Source: Pseudomonadota bacterium (GTDB taxonomy: Bacteria; Desulfobacterota; Desulfobacteria; Desulfobacterales; Desulfatibacillaceae). From it: a DNA stretch of 42,128 bases. The stretch spans positions 1 to 42,128 of the forward strand of contig JAHJUF010000151.1 of assembly GCA_018829095.1 (NCBI GenBank), read 5' to 3'. Positions within the stretch are counted from its first letter, which is position 1. Every line of letters starts with the position of its first letter. Of the stretch, positions 20,862 through 42,128 are shown piece after piece. A model generated the notes under the pieces. The model saw nothing but the letters and a program-made list of their open reading frames with translations. It made no database searches and was not told the origin of the DNA. Both the position numbers and the translations under genes were made by a program.

Positions 20862-22277
20862 ATGCGTGTCGCCTTTGTGCAGAACGTCTGGTTCGACAAT
20901 CTGGGTCCCATCGGCCTTGCGGAAATCCTTGAACGCCAGGGGCACCAGGTCCGCTTTTTCCTGGAAGACCGGAGCTGGGTCAAACGGATCGTTGAATGGG
21001 CCCCCCATGTCGTGGCCTTGAGCGCGACCACGGGGAACCATCTCCCCATGCTGAAAATGGCCGAGATCGCCCGGTCCGCCGTCACGCCCAGGCCCGTTGT
21101 GATCCTGGGCGGTCCCCACGCGACCTTTTTCCCGGAAGTGATCCACCATCCCGCCCTGGACGCGATCTGCCGGGGCGAGGGCGACCTGGCCCTGCCTCAA
21201 TTTTTGGCGGAAATGGAAGGCGGCGGTCTCCCGGAAAAAATCCCCAATTTCTGGATCAAAAAGGACGGGGTCATCCTCAAAAACGAGATCGGCCCCCTGG
21301 TGGTGAACCTGGACGACATCCCGTTTCCCAGGCGGACCCCTCTTTACTCGGAGTACCGGTTCCGGCGGAATTATCCCGTCAAAACCACCGTGAGCAGCCG
21401 CGGCTGTCCCTTTGGGTGCATCTATTGCTACAACAACATCTACAAAAAAATGGTGAGGGGAAAAGGCCCCTACGTCAGGCGGAGAAGCGTCTCCCATCTG
21501 ATGGAGGAACTGTTGTATCTCCACAAGACCTATGGGTTCAGGTCCCTGGAAATCCTGGACGACATCTTCACCATGGACAAGGCCTGGACGCTGGATTTCG
21601 CCCGGGAATACGCGAGGAAAATCCGGCTCCCCTACGCCGTCCTCAGTTCGCCCGGATTTCTGGACCCTGAAATCATCGAGGCCCTGAAGGACTCCAACTG
21701 CCAATGGATCGCCTTTGGTATAGAAAATGGCGATGAAAATATCCGAAGAACCATCCTGAAAAAGCCCTTCCTCAACGAGGATTACCGGGAATTGGCCGGC
21801 ATGATAAAAAAAGCGGGGATCCGGATACAGACCTTCAACATGGTGGGGCTTCCCGGAGAAACCGTGGAAAAGGCCATGGAAACCGTGCGCCTGAACCAGG
21901 AGATACGCGCGGATTATGCCTGGTGTTCCATGGTGCAGCCCTACCCCGGCACGGAGCTGGCGGAAATCTGCCTGAAACAGGGCCTGTTGCGCGAGGAAGA
22001 CCTGGAGTGGGGCGGAATCGCGTCGAAAAGCATCTACGATCAAGGCATGATCCAAAACGAGGAGGGTGCCAGCCTCTCCAACCTCCAGAAGCTGTTCCCC
22101 CTGATGGTGTGGTTCCCGGCCCTCGAGCCCCTTTTCCGCCTCCTGATCCGCCTGCCCCCCAATCCCCTGTTCCGGTACGTTCACCAGGCGACCCTGGGTT
22201 GGCAGGTCAAGAGGCGCGGGAAAATCCGCTTGCTGGAGACCCTCGAAATTTACCGGCGGTTTGCCCGGCACTACTAG
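20862..22277 (+). CDS. B12-binding-type radical SAM enzyme (BchE-like architecture)
   Basis: The 471-aa product has an N-terminal Rossmann domain (VAFVQNVWFDNLGPIGLAE, GLAEILERQGHQV, VILGGPHATF, CRGEGDLALPQFL) and a radical SAM core with SSRGCPFGCIYC (cluster cysteines C182, C186 and C189), ILDDIFTMD, WIAFGIENGDENIRR and FNMVGLPGETVEKA. No DXHXXG motif is present. The C-terminal hydrophobic patch LFPLMVWFPALEPLFRLLIR suggests membrane association. It is more distant from the 15171/17520 pair than they are from each other, and it is separated from them by the GT-C gene and a structured gap. Its stop shares CTAG (22274-22277) with the convergent crotonase gene. Its substrate is unknown; a lipid or isoprenoid fits the context. 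Confidence 0.87.
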   Translation: MRVAFVQNVWFDNLGPIGLAEILERQGHQVRFFLEDRSWVKRIVEWAPHVVALSATTGNHLPMLKMAEIARSAVTPRPVVILGGPHATFFPEVIHHPALDAICRGEGDLALPQFLAEMEGGGLPEKIPNFWIKKDGVILKNEIGPLVVNLDDIPFPRRTPLYSEYRFRRNYPVKTTVSSRGCPFGCIYCYNNIYKKMVRGKGPYVRRRSVSHLMEELLYLHKTYGFRSLEILDDIFTMDKAWTLDFAREYARKIRLPYAVLSSPGFLDPEIIEALKDSNCQWIAFGIENGDENIRRTILKKPFLNEDYRELAGMIKKAGIRIQTFNMVGLPGETVEKAMETVRLNQEIRADYAWCSMVQPYPGTELAEICLKQGLLREEDLEWGGIASKSIYDQGMIQNEEGASLSNLQKLFPLMVWFPALEPLFRLLIRLPPNPLFRYVHQATLGWQVKRRGKIRLLETLEIYRRFARHY

Positions 22278-31262: not shown

Positions 31263-32423
31263 ATGGGCGAAACGCATTTCTTCACATCCGAGTCGGTGAC
31301 CGAGGGACATCCGGACAAGGTGGCGGACGCCATCTCCGACAGCATCCTGGACGCCATCCTGGCCAGGGACAAGGCCGCCCGGGTGGCCTGCGAAACCCTG
31401 GTCACCACGGGGCTGGCGTTTATCGCGGGGGAAATCACCACCGAGTGTTACGTGGACATCCCCGAAATCGTCCGGAACACCATCCGGGAAATCGGGTACA
31501 ACTCCTCCCATATGGGGTTCGACTGGCAGACCTGCGCCGTGGTAACAAGCATTGACCGCCAGTCCCCGGACATCGCCCTGGGCGTGGACGCCGGGGACGC
31601 CAAGGAGCAGGGGGCAGGGGACCAGGGGCTCATGTTCGGTTTCGCCACGGACGAAACCCCTGAATTCATGCCCATGCCCATCCTTTTCGCCCACAGGCTG
31701 TGCAAACGCCTGGCTGCGGTCCGGAAAAACGGGGCCATCGACTTCCTGCGGCCCGACGGCAAGAGCCAGGTCACGGTGGAGTACCAGGACGGGGCCCCCA
31801 GGCGGGTGGACGCGGTGGTGATCTCCACCCAGCACAAGCCCGACGCCACCCAGGCCGAGATCCGGGAGGCCGTCATCGAGGAGGTCATCAAGAAGGTCAT
31901 CCCCCGGGAGCTCATCGACGGGGACACCCGGTACTTCATCAACCCCACGGGCCGCTTCGTGGTGGGCGGGCCCATGGGCGACTGCGGGCTCACGGGGCGC
32001 AAGATCATCGTGGACACCTACGGCGGCCAGGGCAGCCACGGCGGCGGGTGCTTCTCGGGCAAGGACCCCTCCAAGGTGGACCGGAGCGCCTCGTACATGG
32101 GCCGTTACATCGCGAAAAACATCGTGGCCTCCGGGGCGGCCCGGAAATGCGAGGTCCAGGTGGCCTACGCCATCGGCGTGGCCGAGCCGGTTTCCATCCT
32201 CGTGGACACCATGGGAACAGGCCGGGTGCCGGCCTCCCGGCTCAAGGAAATCGTCACCGAGGTATTCGACCTCCGTCCCGCGGCCATCATCCGGCAACTG
32301 GACCTTTTGCGGCCCATCTACCGGAAGACCTCGGCCTACGGGCACTTCGGGCGCAACGACCCGGACTTCACCTGGGAAAGGACCGACCGGGCCGAAGCCA
32401 TCCGGGCCAAGGCTGGCCTGTAA
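31263..32423 (+). CDS. metK: S-adenosylmethionine synthase
   Basis: MetK makes SAM from methionine and ATP. The 386-aa product has the usual length and signatures: [17 protein letters not shown] at the N-terminus, [15 protein letters not shown] (methionine-binding hexapeptide GAGDQG) and the phosphate-binding loop, here [16 protein letters not shown], in which Cys replaces the usual Ala. The ATG has AGGGGAG upstream. It opens a plus-strand series with MTA phosphorylase 47 bp on and apt, which links SAM supply directly to by-product recovery. The 275-bp upstream region carries tandem palindromes, but no SAM riboswitch class that I recognise. Confidence 0.97.
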
Positions 32424-32470
32424 CGGAGAAACGCCGGCCGGCATCAACCTTTTCGAGGAAAGGCGGCACC

Positions 32471-33217
32471 ATGATCAAGATTGGCATCATTGGAGGTTCA
32501 GGGCTCGATGATCCCGGCATCCTGGCCGACGGCGAGGCCGGGGTCCTGAAGACCCCCTACGGGCTGCCCTCCTCCCCCATCACCCAGGGGCAGATCAACG
32601 GGGTGCCCGTGGCCATCCTGGCCCGGCACGGCAAGGAGCACAGCCTGTCGCCCTCCCAGGTGAACTACCGGGCCAATGTCCATGCCTTGAAAGAGGTGGG
32701 GGCCACCCATATCATCGCCACCACGGCCTGCGGGAGCCTGCGCGAAGAGATCGGCCGGGGTGATTTCGTGATCCCGAACCAGTTCATCGATTTCACCCGG
32801 CTCCGGAAGAATACGTTCTTCGATTCCTTTGAGCAGGGCGCCAGGCACTGCGCCATGGCCGACCCTTTTGACGAGAGCCTGCGCCAGGCCCTGGTCAAAA
32901 CCACCCGGGACCTGGGATTTACGGCCCACAACAAGGGGACGCTCATCACCATCGAGGGCCCCCGGTTTTCCACCCGGGCCGAATCCAACATGTTCCGCCT
33001 GTGGGGCGGGGACATCATCAACATGAGCATCGCCCCGGAGGCCTGCCTGGCCAACGAGGCGGAAATCCCCTACGCCGCCATCGCCATGAGCACGGATTAC
33101 GACTGCTGGAAGACCGACGAGAAGCCGGTGTCCTGGGACGAGATCCTGGAGGTGTTCCACCGGAACGCGAAAAACATAAAGGCCATCCTCGTGGAGGTGG
33201 TCAAGAGGATCAAGTGA
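32471..33217 (+). CDS. mtnP: S-methyl-5'-thioadenosine phosphorylase (MTAP family)
   Basis: This enzyme phosphorolyses methylthioadenosine to adenine and 5-methylthioribose 1-phosphate; members can also accept 5'-deoxyadenosine. The 248-aa product shows IGIIGGSGLDD (phosphate-site glycine loop), ILARHGKEHSLSPSQVNYRAN, ATTACGSLREEI, IEGPRFSTRAESNMFR, INMSIAPEACLANEAE and STDYDCWK, where the two aspartates recognise the adenine base and mark it as an adenosine-type, not guanosine-type, phosphorylase. It lies between metK and apt. The plus-strand order metK-mtnP-apt implies recovery of adenine from SAM-derived nucleosides. The start follows an AAAGG ribosome binding site. Confidence 0.93.
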   Translation: MIKIGIIGGSGLDDPGILADGEAGVLKTPYGLPSSPITQGQINGVPVAILARHGKEHSLSPSQVNYRANVHALKEVGATHIIATTACGSLREEIGRGDFVIPNQFIDFTRLRKNTFFDSFEQGARHCAMADPFDESLRQALVKTTRDLGFTAHNKGTLITIEGPRFSTRAESNMFRLWGGDIINMSIAPEACLANEAEIPYAAIAMSTDYDCWKTDEKPVSWDEILEVFHRNAKNIKAILVEVVKRIK

Positions 33218-33261
33218 CGGACGATCCCAGGTTTTCCCCTTCACCCGGAAAGGAAAAAGAG

Positions 33262-33783
33262 ATGAACCTTGCCGAAAAAATCCGGACCGTGCCCAACTGG
33301 CCCATCAAGGGCGTCATGTTCCGGGACATCACCACGCTCCTTTCGGACCCGGAGACCTTCAAGGCCACCATGAACGTCTTCCACGAGCGCTACCGCGAAA
33401 TACACGTGGACAAGATCGTGGGCATCGACGCCCGGGGCTTCATCTTCGGCGCAGTGCTGGCCCATATGATGGGGGTGGGGTTCATCCCCGTGCGGAAAAA
33501 GGGAAAGCTGCCCCACAAGTGCATCCAGGCGGAATACACCCTGGAATACGGCTCCGACGTGGTGGAGATGCACGAGGACGCCATAAGCCCGGGGGAAAAG
33601 GTCCTCATCGTGGACGACCTCATCGCCACCGGGGGCACCGTGTCCGCGGCCGTGAAGCTGGTGGAGCAACTGGGGGGCGAGATCCTGGAGTGCGCCTTTG
33701 TGGTGGAGCTTCCGGACCTGAAGGGCCGGGAGAGGATCGCCAGGCACAAGGTCTTTGCCCTGTGCGAGTTCGAGGGGGACTGA
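33262..33783 (+). CDS. apt: Adenine phosphoribosyltransferase
   Basis: Apt converts adenine and PRPP to AMP. The 173-aa product matches the family throughout: IRTVPNWPIKGVMFRDITTLL, IDARGFIFGAVLAH, VRKKGKLPHK (the flexible-loop region), EYGSDVVEMHEDAI, and the PRPP loop VLIVDDLIATGGT. It lies 44 bp after mtnP, which releases adenine, and the same gene series later contains prs, which makes PRPP. The ATG at 33262 has an AAAGGA ribosome binding site. Confidence 0.96.
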   Translation: MNLAEKIRTVPNWPIKGVMFRDITTLLSDPETFKATMNVFHERYREIHVDKIVGIDARGFIFGAVLAHMMGVGFIPVRKKGKLPHKCIQAEYTLEYGSDVVEMHEDAISPGEKVLIVDDLIATGGTVSAAVKLVEQLGGEILECAFVVELPDLKGRERIARHKVFALCEFEGD

Positions 33784-33906
33784 CCTGGCCCGGCGGCGGG
33801 CATACCGAAAAACAAGAAAGCTCTTTTTGCCGCGGAAAAAGGGAGCATAACGCGAAAATCATTGACCGGGGGGCCGGGGACGGCTTCCCCACGCAAGGAG
33901 GCGTTC

Positions 33907-34692
33907 ATGGACTGGGGAATGGAAAACCGTTTGTCCCGTTTGTTTCAGGCGGACGGGCACTGCATGTTTCTTCCCATTGACCACGGCTATTTCCAAGGCC
34001 CCACCCGGAAGCTGGAAAAGCCCGGCAAGACCATCGAGGGGCTCACCCAATACGCGGACGGGCTCTTTATCACCCGGGGGGTGCTCCGCAACTGCATCCC
34101 CGCGGACAGCACGGTCCCCGTCATCCTCCGGGTCTCCGGGGGCTCGTCGGTCATCGGCGCGGACCTGGCCAACGAGGAACTCTTCACGGACATGGAGGAG
34201 ATCCTCCGGTTGAACGCCACGGCCGTGGGGATCTCCATCTTCGTGGGCACGGACTACGAGCGCCAGTCCCTCATGAACCTGGCCCGGCTGGTGAACGAGT
34301 GCGAGCGTTACGGCATCCCGGTCATGGCCGTCACAGCCGTGGGCAAGGAGTTGGAAAAGCGCGACGCCCGGTACCTGGCCCTGGCCAGCCGCATCGCCGC
34401 CGAGTTGGGGGCCCGGGTGGTGAAGACCTACTGGTGCGAGAACTTCGAGAAGGTGGCCGACGGCTGCCCGGTGCCCGTCATCATGGCCGGAGGCCCCAAG
34501 GTGGAGGACCGGGGCGTGTTCGAGTTCGTACACGACGGCATGACCCGGGGGGCCAAGGGCGTCAACCTGGGCCGCAACATCTGGCAGCACGAGCATCCCA
34601 AGGCCATGGCCAAGGCCCTGTGGGCCGTGGTCCACCAGGGCGCGGACCCGGGCACGGCCATGGAAATCTTCGAGGCGGAAAAGAGCGCCTGA
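33907..34692 (+). CDS. LsrF-like class I (Schiff-base) aldolase, DhnA/COG1830-type
   Basis: The 261-aa TIM-barrel product closely follows the LsrF pattern: FLPIDHGYFQGPT (22-33), GLFITRGVLRNCIP, LRVSGGSS, ASRIAAELGARVVKTYWCENF with likely Schiff-base lysine K173, GCPVPVIMAGG, and GVNLGRNIWQHEHP. LsrF cleaves a 5-carbon 5-phosphate with a terminal methyl group to DHAP and a C2 unit. No other lsr genes are present, so an AI-2 role is unlikely. Next to mtnP and apt, a better inference is cleavage of 5-deoxy- or 5-methylthio-ribulose 1-phosphate to DHAP plus an aldehyde. I chose ATG 33907 because AAGGAGG lies five bases upstream. Its stop overlaps the dehydrogenase start. Confidence 0.85.
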   Translation: MDWGMENRLSRLFQADGHCMFLPIDHGYFQGPTRKLEKPGKTIEGLTQYADGLFITRGVLRNCIPADSTVPVILRVSGGSSVIGADLANEELFTDMEEILRLNATAVGISIFVGTDYERQSLMNLARLVNECERYGIPVMAVTAVGKELEKRDARYLALASRIAAELGARVVKTYWCENFEKVADGCPVPVIMAGGPKVEDRGVFEFVHDGMTRGAKGVNLGRNIWQHEHPKAMAKALWAVVHQGADPGTAMEIFEAEKSA

Positions 34693-35720
34693 TGCGGGTC
34701 GCCACCTACTACAAAAACAATGACCTGAGGATCGAGGAGCGGCCGGTGCCCGGCATCGGGCCCGGCGAGCTTCTGGTGAAGGTCCTGGCCAGCGGCATCT
34801 GCGGCAGCGACGTCATGGAATGGTACCGCGTGAAAAGCGCCCCCCGGGTCCTGGGCCACGAGATCGCGGGCCAGGTGGTGGAGGCCGGGGAGGGAGTCAC
34901 GGAGTTCGCGGCCGGGGACCGGGTGTTCGTGTCCCACCACGTGCCCTGCGGCGTGTGCCCCCTCTGCCTTTCCGGCCACGCCACCGCCTGCGACCTGTTG
35001 CGCTCCACCAACTTCGACCCCGGCGGGTTTGCCGAGTACCTCCGGGTGCCGGCCGTGAACCTGGAGAAAAAGGGGGTGTTCAGGATCCCGGACGAGGTCT
35101 CGGACGAGGACGCCACCTTTGTGGAGCCCCTGGCCTGCGCCCTCCGGGGCCAGCGGGCCGCGGGCATGGCCCCGGCAAAGAGCGTCCTGGTCCTGGGGGC
35201 CGGGATCTCGGGCCTGCTCCACGTGGCCCTGGCCCGGGCCCTTTCGGCCGGACGGATCATGGCCACGGACCTTAACCCCTTCCGCCTGGACATGGCGAAA
35301 AAGTTCGGCGCGGATTTTGTGACCAATGCCGGGGGGGACGTCCCGGCCCGGCTCCGGGAGGCCAATGGCGGAAAAGGCGCGGACCTCGTCATCGTCTGCG
35401 CCGGGGCGGTTTCCGCCATGGAACAGGCCCTTGCCTGCGTGGAGCGGGGGGGCGTCATCCTGTTCTTCGCCCCCTTGAAGCCCGGGGAGACGCTCGCCCT
35501 GCCGGTCTGGGACATCTGGAAGGACGGCGTGAGCCTGGTCACATCCTACGGCGCGGCCCCGGTGGACATCCAGGACGCCCTGGCGCTCATCCGCTTCCAA
35601 CGGGTTCAGGTGAATGGCATGATCACCCACCGGCTTCCCCTGGCGGAAACGGGCAAAGGATTCGGCCTGGTGGCCCGGGCCGGGGATTCGATGAAGGTGG
35701 TCATCCTGCCCCAGGAATGA
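34692..35720 (+). CDS. Zinc-dependent medium-chain alcohol dehydrogenase
   Basis: The 342-aa product is an MDR-family NAD(P)-dependent dehydrogenase. The catalytic zinc ligands are C37 (SGICGSDV) and H56-E57 (GHEIAG); the structural zinc ligands are C86, C89, C92 and C100 (PCGVCPLCLSGHATAC). The Rossmann motif is VLVLGAGISGLLH, followed by the cofactor residue D in MATDLNPFR. It resembles sorbitol/threonine dehydrogenases. Because ATG 34692 overlaps the aldolase TGA, the two are expressed together, and reduction of the aldehyde released by the aldolase is the obvious hypothesis. A hairpin follows the stop. Confidence 0.9.
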   Translation: MRVATYYKNNDLRIEERPVPGIGPGELLVKVLASGICGSDVMEWYRVKSAPRVLGHEIAGQVVEAGEGVTEFAAGDRVFVSHHVPCGVCPLCLSGHATACDLLRSTNFDPGGFAEYLRVPAVNLEKKGVFRIPDEVSDEDATFVEPLACALRGQRAAGMAPAKSVLVLGAGISGLLHVALARALSAGRIMATDLNPFRLDMAKKFGADFVTNAGGDVPARLREANGGKGADLVIVCAGAVSAMEQALACVERGGVILFFAPLKPGETLALPVWDIWKDGVSLVTSYGAAPVDIQDALALIRFQRVQVNGMITHRLPLAETGKGFGLVARAGDSMKVVILPQE

Positions 35721-35744
35721 GGCTTTTCCGGGGCCGGAAAAGCC
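35721..35744 (+). terminator. Perfect 10-bp hairpin after the alcohol dehydrogenase
   Basis: GGCTTTTCCG (35721-35730) and CGGAAAAGCC (35735-35744) form a perfect stem with a 4-nt loop, directly after the TGA. No T-tract follows, so it may mark an mRNA 3' end or pause and is not a classical intrinsic terminator. Confidence 0.5.
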
Positions 35745-36062
35745 GCCCGGCCCCGGAAAAGCCCGGTCAAAAACCCGGCTTTCGGCCTGCCGCCCCCTCC
35801 AAGCGCCCTTCCAGGCCCGTCCCGGGAGGAAAATACGCCTGGCCATGCCCGGCTGGCCTGCGGCCACGTTTCTCCAGGTATTCCAGGAAGTAAACTGGCG
35901 TCCGAAATCAACGGGGAGGTCCGGTCTTATAGAATCGGACAATAAAATTGGCCCGGACTTATCGGCCCGGGCGACTAGTCAAACTTTTTCCGGGAAAATT
36001 GAGCCATTCTTTCAGGGAGGCTTTTTGGAAGTCACCCGAAACAGGAATGAAGGGGGCTCAAG
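35721..36062. other. 342-bp intergenic region before the radical SAM-hydrolase fusion
   Basis: After the hairpin at its 5' end I see no coding frame with gene-like content. The 3' half is unusually AT-rich for this window and contains TCTTATAGAA (35925-35934), similar to the palindromes before metK, a -10-like TAAAAT at 35943-35948 and a GCCCGG/CCGGGC stem (35951-35956 with 35967-35972). It probably holds the promoter of the 36063 gene. Confidence 0.45.
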
Positions 36063-38744
36063 ATGAAAAGAATTCTTTTGGCCAATTCCCTGGGGCCCTA
36101 CGAAATGGGCTGGGGCGAGGACGTCAACGACCTTTTCGCGGCTCGCCTCACCCGGGGCCAGGGCCCTTTCACCCTGAAGAGCCTGTTTCCCGCCTTTGCC
36201 CTGCACCTGCTGTCCGAAAACCTGGACGCCGACACCGTGGTCATGGAGTGGCCCACGGAAAAACTGTTCGCGGCCGAACTGAAGAAGGGCTACGACTTTC
36301 TGGGCGTCCAGGTTAAGTCCATCCACATGGACAACATCGCCCGGATGGTGAAGATGGCCCGGGAAGTCTCGCCCAAGACCCAGATCGTCCTGGGCGGCTA
36401 TGGCGTGACCCACATCTTCAACCCCTATCCCAACGACCCCCAGGACGCGGCCCGGTATCTCAAGGAAAACGCGGACCATTTCTGCTTTGAGGAAGGCGTC
36501 ACCTTCTTCCGCAGGCTCATCGGCCAGTCCACGGACGACCCCGTCACCCAGAAAAAGCAGCCCTTTTTCGAGGCCACCATCCAGGGAGCCGAGTACCTGG
36601 CCCGCTTCCCCCTGTCCTCCACCCTGGTGTCCCTGGGCTGCCCCAACGCCTGCGAGTTCTGCAACACCTCCCACTTCTTCAAGTTCAAGAAGATCTCGGT
36701 GTGCACGCCCGAGCAGGCCTGCGCCTCCCTCAAGGCGGCCCACGAGAAGATGGCCGGCCAGCCCTCCCTGTTCAACATGGTGTGGGATGAGGACTTCTTG
36801 ATCGACCGGCCCTACGTCCTGCGCCTGGGCGAGCTGCTCCAGAAGGAGGGCCTCATCGGCAAGGTGAACCTCTTCTGTTTCGCCTCCATCCGCTCCATCT
36901 CCCAGTTCACGGTGGCCGAGCTGGCCGCCTGCGGCATCGGGGTCCTGTGGATCGGGGTGGAGTCCAAGTTCACGGACGAGGTGGTGGCCAGCCACAACTT
37001 CCAGAAAAGGATGGGCCGGGACGTGCGCGAGGTCTTCGAGGACCTCCACGACCACGGCATCCTCATCGTGGGCTCCAACATCCTGGGCCTGGATTTCCAC
37101 AACCACGAGAACATCATCGAGGACATCGACTACTTCGTGTCCCTGAAGCCCGATCTGTACCAGGTGTCGCCGCTCCGCCCCTGCCCGGGCACCACGCTCT
37201 ACGAGAGGATGATGGAGGACGGGCGCATCGAGGAGGAAATGCGGGCCGCGGACACCATGCTCTGGAGCGACATCGGCCTGAAACACCCCAACTTCAAGCG
37301 GGGCGAGATCCAGAAGTACTTCCAGATCGCCCACAAGAAGCTCTTCGAGACCAACGGGCCCACCATCCTGAACACCCTGGACGTCTGGACGCGGGGTTAC
37401 CTCAACATGCGCCACTCCCCCAACCCCTATCTCCAGGTCCGGGCCGAACGGTGCCTTTTCCTGGCCACCAAGCTGGGCGCAGGGCTTTTGCCCGCCGTCC
37501 GGCTCCATGCCCCCAGCGAGGCGGTGCGGGAACGGGCCCGGGAGGTGGAGGACCGGTACCGCCGGCACATCGGGGATTTCGGCCTGGGGACCCGGGTGAT
37601 CCAGGGTGCGGTCAACCGGCTCACGACCACCAAGGCCGGGAAGGAAAAGGCCGAGCCATCCGCGCCGCCCTGGAGCGTCACCCGCATCAAGGGCCTGGAC
37701 GGCGAGCCCCGGGTGGTCCGCAGGGAAAAGCCCGTCCGTCACGCCCTGAGCAAGGTCTCCATCGGGGTCCTGCGCCGGGTCCTGGGCCTGAAGTACAAAC
37801 CGGCCTTCCCCATCAAGCTCGCGGACATCGACGATTTCCCGGTGCAGTTCAAGACCATGGAGATCGAGGGGCACCGCATGAACTACGTGGACGAGGGCGA
37901 GGGAGAGACCCTGCTCATGCTCCACGGCAACCCCACCTGGTCGTACCTCTACCGCCACATGATCGCGGACCTCAAAAAGGACTTTCGTTGCGTGGCCCTG
38001 GACCACCTGGGTTACGGGCTCTCGGACAAGCCCCGGGACGGGGACTACTCCATGGAGGCCCACATCCGCCGCCTGGGCGTGTTCGTGGAAAAGCTCGGGT
38101 TGGAGAGGGTGACCCTCATCTGCCAGGACTGGGGCGGCATCATCGGGCTTTCCTATGCGGCCCGGAACAAGGAGCGCTTTTCCCGCCTCATCCCCATGAA
38201 CACCACGGGCTTCCTGCCCCATTCGCCCGAGGAGTTCATCAAGTGCCTAAAGGCCTGGGCCTTTCCCTACCTGTGGTCCTTCAAGACCCCCATCCTGGGG
38301 AAAAAGATGGCCATGGACTGGAACATTTTCCTCACGGCCGGGATGCGCCTGGGCACCCACAACACCCGGCGCATGATGACCCAAAAGGCCATGGCCGGCT
38401 ACCTGTACCCCTTCCAGCGGAAGGAGGACCGCACGGCCATCATGAAATCCGTGCGCCAGGTTCCCATGGGGCCCATGGACAAGGTATGGTGGCTTTTGCG
38501 AAGAACGGAGAAGGAGCTTGCCGGCTGGAACGTCCGCACCCGGGTGATCTGGGGCATGAAGGACCCGGTCTTCGTGCCGTGGTTCATCGAAAAGTTCGAG
38601 GAGATACTGCCCAACCACGCCCCCACGCTCAAAATCCCCACGGCGGGCCATTTCCTCCAGGACGACGAACCGGAGCTCATCATCCTGGGCATCCGGGAAT
38701 TTCTCCGGGAAAAGGGCCTGAAGGGCAAGCGGCAGGCGGCCTGA
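36063..38744 (+). CDS. Fusion of B12-type radical SAM enzyme and haloalkane-dehalogenase/OleB-like hydrolase
   Basis: The 893-aa product has an N-terminal Rossmann-like domain (1-150), a radical SAM core with [12 protein letters not shown] (C193, C197, C200), [15 protein letters not shown] near 380, a linker, and from about 595 an alpha/beta hydrolase. The hydrolase has [13 protein letters not shown] with N623, [13 protein letters not shown], nucleophile D689 in CQDWGG followed by W690, acid D834 in GMKDPVF and base H863 in AGHFL. This Asp-His-Asp set plus the Asn/Trp pair is the haloalkane dehalogenase/OleB signature. No frameshift or stop separates the halves, and the joint is a basic Pro/Lys-rich linker. 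I infer that the radical product is passed to hydrolysis or decarboxylation. A ribosome binding site (AAGGGGG) precedes the ATG. Confidence 0.88.
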
Positions 38745-38756
38745 CGCGAATAAACG

Positions 38757-38774
38757 CCCGCCCCGCCGGGCGGG
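38757..38774 (+). promoter_or_regulatory. GC hairpin between the fusion gene and prs
   Basis: CCCGCCC (38757-38763) and GGGCGGG (38768-38774) form a perfect 7-bp stem with loop CGCC in the 43-bp gap. It ends next to the prs ribosome binding site (AAAGGGG), so it may tune translation or be a processing signal. No T-tract follows. Confidence 0.4.
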
Positions 38775-38787
38775 AAAGGGGTTTGGA

Positions 38788-39732
38788 ATGAACGGAGACC
38801 TGGTCATCTTCACCGGAAAAGCCACCCCGGCGCTGGCGGGAAAGATCTGCGCCCACCTGGATCTTCCCCTGGGAAAGTCCATGGCCAAGGCTTTCTCCGA
38901 CGGCGAGACCCGGGTGGAGATCCAGGAGAACGTCCGGGGCAAGGACGTGTTCGTGGTCCAGAGCACCTGCCCGCCGGTGAACCACAACCTCATGGAGCTT
39001 TTGGTGATGCTGGACGCCCTCAAGCGGTCCAGCGCCAAGCGGATCACGGCGGTGATCCCTTATTACGGCTACGCCCGCCAGGACCAGAAGGTGGCCCCCC
39101 GGGTTCCCATCAGCGCCCGCCTCGTGGCTGACCTCCTCACCGTGGCCGGGGCGAGGCGGGTCATCACCATGGATCTCCACGCGGGCCAGATCCAGGGGTT
39201 CTTCAACATCCCGGTGGACAACCTCTTTGCCGCGCCCATCCTCCTTTCCGACATCCGGGACCGGTTCACGGGCAAAAACCTGGTCATCGTGTCCCCGGAC
39301 GCGGGGGGCGCCGAGCGGGCCCGGGCGTTCGCCAAGCGGATCCACGCGGACCTGGCCCTCATCGACAAGCGCCGGAGCGCCCCCAACCAGGCCCGGGCCA
39401 TGAACGTCATCGGAGAGGTGGCCGGCAGGACGGCCATTCTCCTGGACGACATGGCGGACACGGCCGGGACCCTGTGCGAGGCCGCCCGGGCGCTCATGGA
39501 GCAAGGCGCCGAGGCGGCCCACGCCTACGTGTCCCACCCGGTGCTCTCCGGCCCGGCCGTGGAGCGCATCGCGGGGTCGGCCATCGAGTCTTTGGTGGTC
39601 ACGGACACCATCCCCCTTTCCCCGGAGGCGGAAGCCACCGGCAAAATCCGGGCCCTGTCCATCGCCCCCCTGGTGGCCGAAGCCATCATCCGCAGCCACC
39701 GGGGAGACTCGGTGAGTTCGCTTTTCGTCTGA
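38788..39732 (+). CDS. prs: Ribose-phosphate pyrophosphokinase (PRPP synthetase)
   Basis: Prs makes PRPP from ribose 5-phosphate and ATP. The 314-aa product has normal length and class I signatures: [32 protein letters not shown] (ATP-binding arginine and flexible region), [24 protein letters not shown], and the PRPP loop [13 protein letters not shown]. It supplies the co-substrate of the Apt encoded upstream. It lies 43 bp after the fusion gene and 18 bp before the chelatase gene, all on the plus strand. Confidence 0.97.
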
Positions 39733-39750
39733 AGCCGCACCCGGAGGACC

Positions 39751-41778
39751 ATGAACCCGACCTTCCCGTTTTCCGCCTTCGTGGGCCAGGAAAGAATGCT
39801 CACCGGGCTCCTGCTGAACGCCGTGAACCCCCGGATCGGCGGCATCCTCATCCGGGGCGAGAAGGGCACGGGCAAGAGCACGGTGGTGCGGGCCCTGGCC
39901 TCCCTGCTTCCCGAGATCGAGGTGAAGGAGGGCTGCCCGTTCGGCTGCGATCCCGGCGAAAAAGCCGCGGCCTGCCCTCACTGCGGTCAGCTCTCGCCGG
40001 ATGAGGCTCCGGCCACGGTGAAACGTCCCACCCCGGTGGTGGATCTTCCCATCAACGCCACCGAGGACCGGGTATCGGGAACCATGGACATGGAGCACGC
40101 CCTGACCTCCGGGGAAAAACGGTTCGAGCCCGGATTGCTGGCCCGGGCCAATCGGGGTATCCTGTACGTGGACGAAGTCAATCTCCTGGACGATCACATC
40201 GTGGACATCCTCCTGGACAGCGCGGCCATGGGGGTCAACACCGTGGAGCGGGAAGGCATGAGCGTCACCCACCCGGCCCGGTTCATCCTGGTGGGCACCA
40301 TGAACCCCGAGGAAGGGGACCTGCGCCCCCAGCTCCTGGACCGCTTCGGCCTGTGCGTCGCGGTGAAGGGTATAGCCGACCTGGACCAGCGGGACGAGCT
40401 TCTCCGGCGGTGGGAGGCCTTCGAAGCCAACCCGACGGCGTTTTGCGGCCAATGGAAAAAGGAGGAGGCCCGGCTCAGAAAGCGCATCGTCCAGGCCCGG
40501 AAGCTCCTGCCCAGGATCAAGGCGGACGCCGGGATCATCCGCATGATCACCGATCTGGCCGTGCGCATGGGCGTGGATGGCCACCGGGCTGACCTGGTGA
40601 TCTTGAAGACCGCCAAGACCCATGCCGCCTTCCGGGGAAACCGGGAGGTGACGGAAGAGGACGTGGCCCTGGCGGCCAAGTTCGCCCTGTATCACCGCAT
40701 GCGCCGCCAGCCCTTTGACGAGATTCCCGACGACATGGGCATGGTGGACAGGATCCTGAGCCAGCCGCCGGAAGGCGGTTGCCACAAAAAAAAACTCCTG
40801 AGGCCTGAGGCGTCGAAAAAAACCTCCGAGCCCGCCCGGGAGCGGGAGCCTGTCCGGGAGGCCCGGCCCCCCGAAGGCAAACCCTGCGACCGGCTGGCCG
40901 GCCAGGGGGAATGGGGCCAGATTTTGGAGGCCGGAGGAATGGCCGAGCTTGACCTTGAGGAGGAAAAGAGACGCCGGTCCGCAAAGCCCAGGCCCGAGAA
41001 GGGGCGCCTCTCCCCGGCCAGGGCCCTGCCCAAGAGGGGGCGCTACGTCCGGCCGACCCCGGCGGGCGGGCTGTTGGACCTGGCCCTGGACGCCACTTTC
41101 CGGGCGGCGGCTCCCTTTGCCCGGAGCCGGCCCCCCAGTCACCTGGCCATCCCCATCCTCCCCCAGGACTGGAGGGACAAGATCCGGACCCACAAGACCG
41201 GGGCCCTGTTCGTCTTCGTGGTGGACGCCTCGGGCTCCATGGGCACCCACCTCATGAGCCTCACCAAGGCAGCCATTCTCCAACTCCTGGACAAGGCCTA
41301 CAAGGACCGGAGCGAGGCGGCCCTGGTGGCTTTCAAGGCCCGTGGGGCCGAATTGCTCCTGCCCCCCACCCGGAGCATCAGCCTGGCGGAGAAATGCCTC
41401 CGGGACCTGCCCACGGGCGGGGCCACGCCGCTGGCTGCGGGCATTTCCCTGGGCCACCGGGTGGCGGAAAGGGCCCTGGCCGGGATCCGGCATTCCTGGC
41501 CCCACCTGGTCCTGGTCACGGACGGACGGGGCAACGTGGGCATGGACGCAGCCCGCCGGGGGAGCGGGTTGATGGTCCTGCCCCTCCACGAGGAGGTCTT
41601 TGCCGTGGCCCGGAAGGTCCGGAAGGATACGCGCATCCGGTCCCTGGTCCTGGACACGGAGGAAAAACACCCCGGCAACCTGGACATGGCCCGGGAAATC
41701 GCCATGCACATGGGAGCCCGGTACGTGGCCATGGGCAACCTCCAGCCGGGGGGCATGATCCGGGCCATCATGGAATGA
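39751..41778 (+). CDS. Fused AAA+/VWA magnesium- or cobalt-chelatase-type protein (BchI-BchD-like)
   Basis: The 675-aa product joins an AAA+ motor (about 1-340) to a VWA domain (about 480-675) through a charged Pro/Arg-rich linker. Walker A is GEKGTGKST (36-44) and Walker B is GILYVDEVNLL, with VVDLPINATEDRVSGTMD and VGTMNPEEGDLRPQLLDRFGL typical of chelatase I subunits. Four cysteines (C62, C66, C75, C78, in GCPFGCDPGEKAAACPHC) suggest a small metal site. The VWA MIDAS begins DASGSMG (D492, S494, S496). In tetrapyrrole synthesis such proteins power metal insertion with a large H/CobN subunit, which is not in the window. The ribosome binding site is GGAGG. Neighbouring cobalamin-type radical SAM genes make a corrinoid role possible, but not shown. 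Confidence 0.87.
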   Translation: MNPTFPFSAFVGQERMLTGLLLNAVNPRIGGILIRGEKGTGKSTVVRALASLLPEIEVKEGCPFGCDPGEKAAACPHCGQLSPDEAPATVKRPTPVVDLPINATEDRVSGTMDMEHALTSGEKRFEPGLLARANRGILYVDEVNLLDDHIVDILLDSAAMGVNTVEREGMSVTHPARFILVGTMNPEEGDLRPQLLDRFGLCVAVKGIADLDQRDELLRRWEAFEANPTAFCGQWKKEEARLRKRIVQARKLLPRIKADAGIIRMITDLAVRMGVDGHRADLVILKTAKTHAAFRGNREVTEEDVALAAKFALYHRMRRQPFDEIPDDMGMVDRILSQPPEGGCHKKKLLRPEASKKTSEPAREREPVREARPPEGKPCDRLAGQGEWGQILEAGGMAELDLEEEKRRRSAKPRPEKGRLSPARALPKRGRYVRPTPAGGLLDLALDATFRAAAPFARSRPPSHLAIPILPQDWRDKIRTHKTGALFVFVVDASGSMGTHLMSLTKAAILQLLDKAYKDRSEAALVAFKARGAELLLPPTRSISLAEKCLRDLPTGGATPLAAGISLGHRVAERALAGIRHSWPHLVLVTDGRGNVGMDAARRGSGLMVLPLHEEVFAVARKVRKDTRIRSLVLDTEEKHPGNLDMAREIAMHMGARYVAMGNLQPGGMIRAIME

Positions 41779-42080
41779 GGAGGAAGCAAAAAAAGGAACG
41801 CAGATTACGCAGGCAACTTGCAACAAACAATAGATTTCAGATGGTTAGGATTGGCGGCCCCGCAATAAATCGTCATCCCGGCGAAGGCCGGGATCCAGGA
41901 CTTTTGCAAGGCATTGAAAAAACTGGATTCCGGCCTTCGCCGGAATGACGGGCACAAGGGCTTTCGACCTGCTGCATGGCCGTCAGGATTACAAAAATCT
42001 GGAGGCTCTTGATCCGCGATGGATCATCCTGGGAACATGAATCTGCGTAATCCGCAGGTTCTGCCTTTTTGCAGCCTCAT
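41775..42080. repeat. MITE-like element with imperfect terminal inverted repeats
   Basis: About 40 bp at each end are imperfect inverted repeats: 41775-41813 and 42041-42080 share ATGAGG, a GCAAAAA block, AAC and the exact core GATTACGCAG (41803-41812; complement at 42043-42052). The left end overlaps the chelatase stop codon. The roughly 300-bp interior has no gene and contains a REP-like pair. Sequences with GCAGATTACGCAG ends recur between genes in many bacterial genomes, to my recollection. No transposase is encoded. Confidence 0.5.
41871..41950. repeat. Pair of facing REP-like hairpins (REPIN/BIME-like)
   Basis: The arms 41871-41898 and 41923-41950 are 28 bp each and 26/28 complementary. 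Each arm is also a hairpin by itself: CCCGGC-GAAG-GCCGGG on the left and TCCGGC-CTTC-GCCGGA on the right. The two positions that break the long pairing form compensated pairs inside each small hairpin, so the individual hairpins, not just the long stem, have been maintained. The 24-bp middle is AT-richer. Confidence 0.75.
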
Positions 42081-42128
42081 CATGGAACAGGTAGCATAAA
42101 GAAGAGAGGAGCGGCCTTTTGGGAACCC

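Follow-up and report, generated by a model that had tools for sequence, protein, structure and literature searches.

The window that we studied (the whole 42,128-nucleotide stretch of DNA) contains a single gene, at 36063-38744 on the forward strand, in which a B12-type radical SAM (RSAM) enzyme is joined to an alpha/beta hydrolase of the HLD-III/OleB type (HLD-III is subfamily III of the haloalkane dehalogenases). We are nearly certain of the fusion and of its conservation. We found no description of a fusion of an RSAM enzyme with an Asp-nucleophile hydrolase in the literature that we searched, which agrees with an earlier, sequence-only reading of this DNA. That reading did not mention a ChlI/ChlD-type gene that lies 1 kb downstream. 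Tentatively, and without much surprise if we turn out to be wrong, we propose a three-part anaerobic system: the RSAM-hydrolase fusion would be the client of an orphan ChlI/ChlD motor and would carry out an undescribed conversion, by radical chemistry and hydrolysis, of an acyl-type substrate.

The fusion gene and its conservation

The gene runs from ATG to stop without a break and encodes 893 amino acids, as the sequence-only reading had described, and the residues that it had named are all where it placed them. Residues 1-180 (36063-36602) make up a B12-binding-like domain, and residues 181-430 (36603-37352) are the radical SAM core with its CX3CX2C motif (C193, C197, and C200). The C-terminal part of the RSAM and a linker follow (residues 431-585; 37353-37817), and then the hydrolase (residues 586-893; 37818-38741) with its pentad of N623, D689, W690, D834, and H863. 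GC3 is alike in the two halves (0.91 and 0.90). An Rfam scan of the window gave no match, and a search for a sigma-70-like promoter in 35600-42128 found none.

Two Pfam domains score above their cut-offs, Radical_SAM (189-357) and Abhydrolase_1 (616-870), while the B12-binding match (58-116) is below cut-off in this protein. Among 19 proteins that are related to the RSAM half, 18 match the B12-binding domain (best E 5e-12), so the "B12-type" label is valid at the level of the family. The B12-binding-like domain has no DxHxxG motif; the protein's sole D.H..G is at 327, outside of the domain. The lack of this motif does not settle whether cobalamin is bound and used. The N-terminal domain that would place the protein among the cobalamin-dependent RSAMs is weak in the window's member and clear in its relatives. 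The three cysteines are invariant across 33 homologues, and their position within the radical SAM core places the protein in the radical SAM superfamily. The closest solved structure to the RSAM half is AprD4 (6fd2). Like AprD4, BchE, and HpnJ, the fusion has an N-terminal B12-type domain followed by a CX3CX2C core, but it is distant from these enzymes (67 bits for HpnJ, with a cut-off of 578, and 38 bits for BchE, TIGR02026, with a cut-off of 481), and it has a long extra C terminus besides the fused hydrolase. Unfused relatives at 45% identity, of about 580-610 amino acids, still align up to about residue 558. The window also encodes a second, ordinary B12-binding RSAM protein (20862-22277) with strong matches to both domains.

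The hydrolase half matches a solved HLD-type alpha/beta hydrolase over residues 591-883 (E 1e-43); 8ooh and 8ckp are the closest, followed by many haloalkane dehalogenases at E values of about 1e-43. Its pentad (an Asn and a Trp that form the halide site, an Asp nucleophile, an Asp acid, and a His base) is identical to the one described for HLD-III, the subfamily that includes OleB (PMC10503415). The fusion shares the N-D-W-D-H pentad with the HLD-III/OleB hydrolases DhmeA and XcOleB, and the alignment spans nearly the whole hydrolase fold. However, those proteins stand alone, whereas the window's hydrolase is fused to an RSAM, belongs to a clade of its own, and is found, in the main family, in genomes without OleC. 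Together, the Pfam hits, the matches to solved structures, and the pentad uphold the earlier assignment of both halves, with the B12 part holding at the family level.

Is the fusion an assembly artefact or an isolated joining event? We reject both explanations because full-length fusions at 71-74% identity are present in independent assemblies, including that of the isolate Desulfatibacillum alkenivorans DSM 16219. The others at this level are in Desulfatibacillum MAG7, two more metagenome-assembled genomes (MAGs) from the family, and G003 (genomes are numbered G and loci L; L009-L014 correspond to G002, G001, G005, G006, and G004). A sixth relative, G004, has a fusion gene that is interrupted at a contig end. 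G117, from another family, has a copy at 58% identity, and the window's own genome encodes a second fused paralogue (L069) at 64% identity. Altogether, seven genomes contain full-length fusions, in eight open reading frames, and in an eighth genome the gene is cut by the contig end. (Genes in the relatives were called with a simple codon-usage script, so some starts may be off.) No further fusions were seen in samples of the order, the phylum, and the class (about 1,100 overlapping genome searches, with the best few candidates per genome). Judging from these identities, which span 58-74% across two families, the fusion is real and old.

Purifying selection acts on both halves, and the linker is looser: pN/pS is 0.17-0.43 for the RSAM core, 0.20-0.33 for the hydrolase half, and 0.44-0.81 for the linker, which together with the C-terminal part of the RSAM evolves fastest of all the parts. 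The pentad is invariant in all nine fused hydrolases. We therefore reject the idea that the hydrolase is a pseudo-enzyme; a decayed hydrolase half would have undermined the earlier reading, and these data show that it has not decayed.

Separate genes for the RSAM and the hydrolase

A search for homologues, which had been suggested as a check, found both proteins with the two halves and adjacent split genes in other genomes. In a tree of RSAMs, all of those that are fused or linked to a hydrolase fall within one clade (support 100/100) that is separate from 16 other RSAMs. A separate hydrolase gene lies 4 bp from the clade RSAM at L072 and 11 bp from it at L134. At L139, the two genes overlap by 4 bp and their order is reversed; at L071, the order is RSAM, chlI, chlD, hydrolase. 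The window's own genome has a split pair as well (L135, with 26 bp between the genes), although a contig end cuts this locus, and its place in the clade comes from an identity of 61% with one of the members and not from the tree. If the fusions are collapsed to one lineage, then 6 of 10 lineages in the clade are hydrolase-linked versus 0 of 16 outside it (P = 0.0009, Fisher's exact test). Counting an ole cluster near the L081 RSAM changes this to 6 of 10 versus 1 of 16 (P = 0.005).

The split hydrolases are of several kinds. In a tree of the hydrolases, the L134 hydrolase groups with OleB, and the L133 hydrolase groups with HLD types near DhlA. The hydrolases of L072, L135, and L139 keep the Asp nucleophile and lack the halide-binding Trp; those of L072 and L135 have HGIP and HDQGG motifs. 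At L133 (472-2430), the DhlA-type-HLD-like hydrolase gene adjoins chlI and chlD but has no RSAM neighbor, and two RSAM-hydrolase pairs are found elsewhere in that genome. In another family (f74), RSAM relatives at 43-45% identity lie beside penicillin-acylase-like proteins, which we named by eye from their sequences. At L140, L142, and L109, this neighbor is about 810 amino acids long, and L140 and L142 have an esterase-like gene too (also named by eye). Given the other hydrolase subfamilies in the split relatives and the acylase-like neighbors in f74, the type of hydrolase is not fixed. The constant theme is a clade RSAM that is paired with a hydrolase.

An orphan ChlI/ChlD-type protein and other neighbors

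The downstream gene (39751-41778, forward strand) encodes a fused ChlI/ChlD-type AAA+/VWA protein of 675 amino acids. It scores 707 bits against TIGR02442 (cut-off 779) and 446 bits against TIGR02030, and its motifs are intact: Walker A (36), Walker B (140), and the MIDAS motif DxSxS (492). Like the ChlI/ChlD chelatase subunits of TIGR02442, it combines AAA+ Walker A/B motifs with a VWA MIDAS, and it is fused as in putative cobaltochelatase subunits. ChlI/ChlD-type genes, either fused or as separate chlI and chlD, are present at every fusion locus except that of the window genome's own paralogue (L069). Within the order, all 10 of the genomes that we know to have a fused pair, or the split pairs of G112 and G207, contain them, versus 32 of 282 others (P = 1e-9, or P = 2e-4 with lineages collapsed). 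However, shared descent clusters these counts, and we picked the groups for comparison after the neighborhoods were seen. The RSAM-linked ChlI proteins form a separate clade (98/97), L133 excepted.

What these genomes mostly lack is the large subunit of a chelatase. The CobN/ChlH family (PF02514) is absent from G000, G003-G006, G117, G112, and G207, of which G000 is 87% complete and G004 is 83% complete. D. alkenivorans (G001) does encode CobN, along with a second, separate ChlI/ChlD pair, and one CobN fragment is present in G002, to which it is closely related. CobN is adjacent in 12 of the 20 other ChlI/ChlD loci that we examined and was seen at none of the 10 loci that are linked to RSAMs or hydrolases. 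A magnesium or cobalt chelatase would be expected to have CobN or ChlH in the same genome, and, as judged from gene content, most of these genomes do not. For most of these genomes, we therefore rejected a CobN-type chelatase role for the ChlI/ChlD-type protein: it differs from the chelatase subunits in that it mostly occurs without CobN/ChlH and is tied genomically to the RSAM and the hydrolase. ChlI and ChlD without a large subunit have been noted before, and their function was stated to be unknown and unexplored (PMC9227772). In magnesium chelatase, the integrin (VWA) domain of ChlD binds its client, ChlH (PMC6604950). Because the large subunit is mostly missing here, the RSAM/hydrolase protein is a natural candidate for the client. 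From genome context, this motor-client relation is a reasonable guess, if one on which we would stop just short of betting.

Between the fusion and the ChlI/ChlD gene, with gaps of 43 bp and 18 bp, the window has a ribose-phosphate pyrophosphokinase gene (38788-39732, forward strand). This gene is in that position in two genomes only, the window's and G004 (the L138 copy is at 1473-2417). An acyl-CoA dehydrogenase gene follows ChlI/ChlD at L009, L011, L012, L067, and L138, and a relative of this dehydrogenase (36% identity) is near the L141 RSAM. The linkage is missing at L010 and L068 and directly beside L069. The window's contig ends just past ChlI/ChlD. This linkage hints, weakly, at an acyl-type substrate, an idea that we hold loosely and would not rely on. 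Ferredoxin-domain proteins recur near L011, L012, L068, L069, L139, and L140, and they could supply electrons.

Upstream of the fusion (31263-35720) are metK and genes for a purine/MTA-type nucleoside phosphorylase, an APRT-like protein, a DhnA/LsrF-type aldolase, and a threonine-dehydrogenase-like alcohol dehydrogenase. These might form a set for recycling SAM and 5'-deoxyadenosine. We rejected this set as a part of the system because the relatives do not have these genes beside their fusions. In a Desulfatibacillum relative, the aldolase and alcohol dehydrogenase pair is at another locus (L225).

What the fusion protein may do

Going by the chemistry of their families, the two halves might work as follows. 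The [4Fe-4S]/SAM site at C193/C197/C200, probably with cobalamin in the N-terminal domain, would generate a 5'-deoxyadenosyl radical (or make use of methylcobalamin) and would functionalize an unreactive C-H position on a hydrophobic, probably acyl-derived molecule. Given the intact pentad, D689 would then attack a carbon of the substrate while N623 and W690 stabilize the leaving group, and H863 and D834 would activate water to hydrolyze the Asp-ester, so that the product is opened or released. The ChlI/ChlD-type protein would act as an ATP-driven motor for remodeling or for loading a cofactor, in place of its work on CobN/ChlH. We think it quite likely that the two halves are functionally coupled, and we infer that both active sites act on the same substrate. 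As to the fuller picture, in which a bifunctional enzyme performs radical functionalization and Asp-ester hydrolysis, in either order, on one, probably acyl-type, substrate and is serviced by an orphan ChlI/ChlD motor, we are evenly divided.

Several observations count against this picture. The AlphaFold model of the fusion, from a seven-sequence alignment, has a mean pLDDT of 43 and a pTM of 0.32 and is unusable for judging channeling between the active sites. The hydrolase subfamily varies among the split relatives, and f74 has the acylase-like partner instead. The paralogue at L069 has no adjoining ChlI/ChlD; D. alkenivorans has CobN with a separate ChlI/ChlD pair and G002 has the CobN fragment; the co-occurrence is phylogenetically clustered; and the acyl-CoA dehydrogenase is missing from some loci. 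In a rival explanation, the halves would be independent, two genes of an operon would have been joined neutrally, and the ChlI/ChlD linkage would be a heritage of that operon. The fast evolution of the linker suits this explanation, as do the clade RSAMs without an adjacent HLD-type hydrolase (L073 and L141). But the pairing recurs in both gene orders and with several hydrolase subfamilies, and a second fused paralogue has been maintained, so we consider neutral joining to be unlikely, though not far-fetched.

The sequence-only reading had raised two known chemistries for the hydrolase, OleB-type decarboxylation of beta-lactones and dehalogenation, and neither is established. If the hydrolase half were an OleB-type decarboxylase in the head-to-head olefin pathway, then the RSAM would modify the lactone or the hydrocarbon. 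The shared pentad and the 33-39% identity to OleB from ole clusters are in keeping with this, and six of the fusion genomes have a stand-alone OleA-like thiolase (39-40%; L225 8602-9642, with equivalents in G001, G003-G006, and G207) that is absent from G007 and G008. This thiolase gene is not clustered with OleB, OleC, or OleD genes or with the fusion, though, and G000 (despite its 87% completeness) has no OleA match. No main-family fusion genome encodes an OleC-like protein at E <= 1e-60, which makes a canonical Ole role unlikely, and we rejected membership in the OleB pathway on the basis of the missing OleC and the unclustered OleA-like gene. Also, G117 carries the fusion plus a separate ole cluster. 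The comparison of the C-terminal half with OleB and the dehalogenases by phylogeny, another check that had been suggested, places OleB proteins in their own clade and the fused hydrolases in a different one, and the split relatives use other Asp-nucleophile subfamilies. Overall, an OleB-type role seems quite improbable. We give even less credence to dehalogenation, with the hydrolase removing halide and the RSAM half activating or repairing the substrate. Of the family models, those for haloalkane dehalogenases match best, and the N/W pair that would bind halide is preserved, but the score of 177 bits is below the curated cut-off of 241 (NF002938). Furthermore, HLD-III members have low activity as dehalogenases, so that "dehalogenase-like" is the better name for them (PMC10503415), the split partners at L072, L135, and L139 do without the halide-binding Trp, and we recognized no halogen-related gene nearby.

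The gene content at the fusion loci also parallels known gene sets, bchE and bchI-D-O, so we considered a tetrapyrrole-modifying cassette that is analogous to BchE (a B12-type RSAM cyclase), BchO (a hydrolase), and BchI/BchD. The weak BchE-like score of the RSAM, the ChlI/ChlD-type genes, the hydrolase, and a GGR-family-like flavoprotein in G117 would all fit. However, the RSAM is far below the cut-off for BchE, and the hydrolase is of the HLD type (35 bits for the BchO model versus 177 for HLD). Without ChlH or CobN, most of these genomes have no porphyrin-binding subunit. We think that such a cassette is very unlikely.

If our proposal of a bifunctional enzyme that is serviced by a ChlI/ChlD motor is correct, then one polypeptide would combine radical chemistry at C-H bonds with hydrolysis through a covalent Asp-ester, and there would be a concrete partner for the ChlI/ChlD proteins that occur without a large subunit. 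The fusion is present in an isolate, D. alkenivorans DSM 16219, which opens the question to tests in culture. The host family consists of anaerobic bacteria of the sulfate-reducer type, and the fusion suggests that they carry out a biochemical step that has yet to be described.
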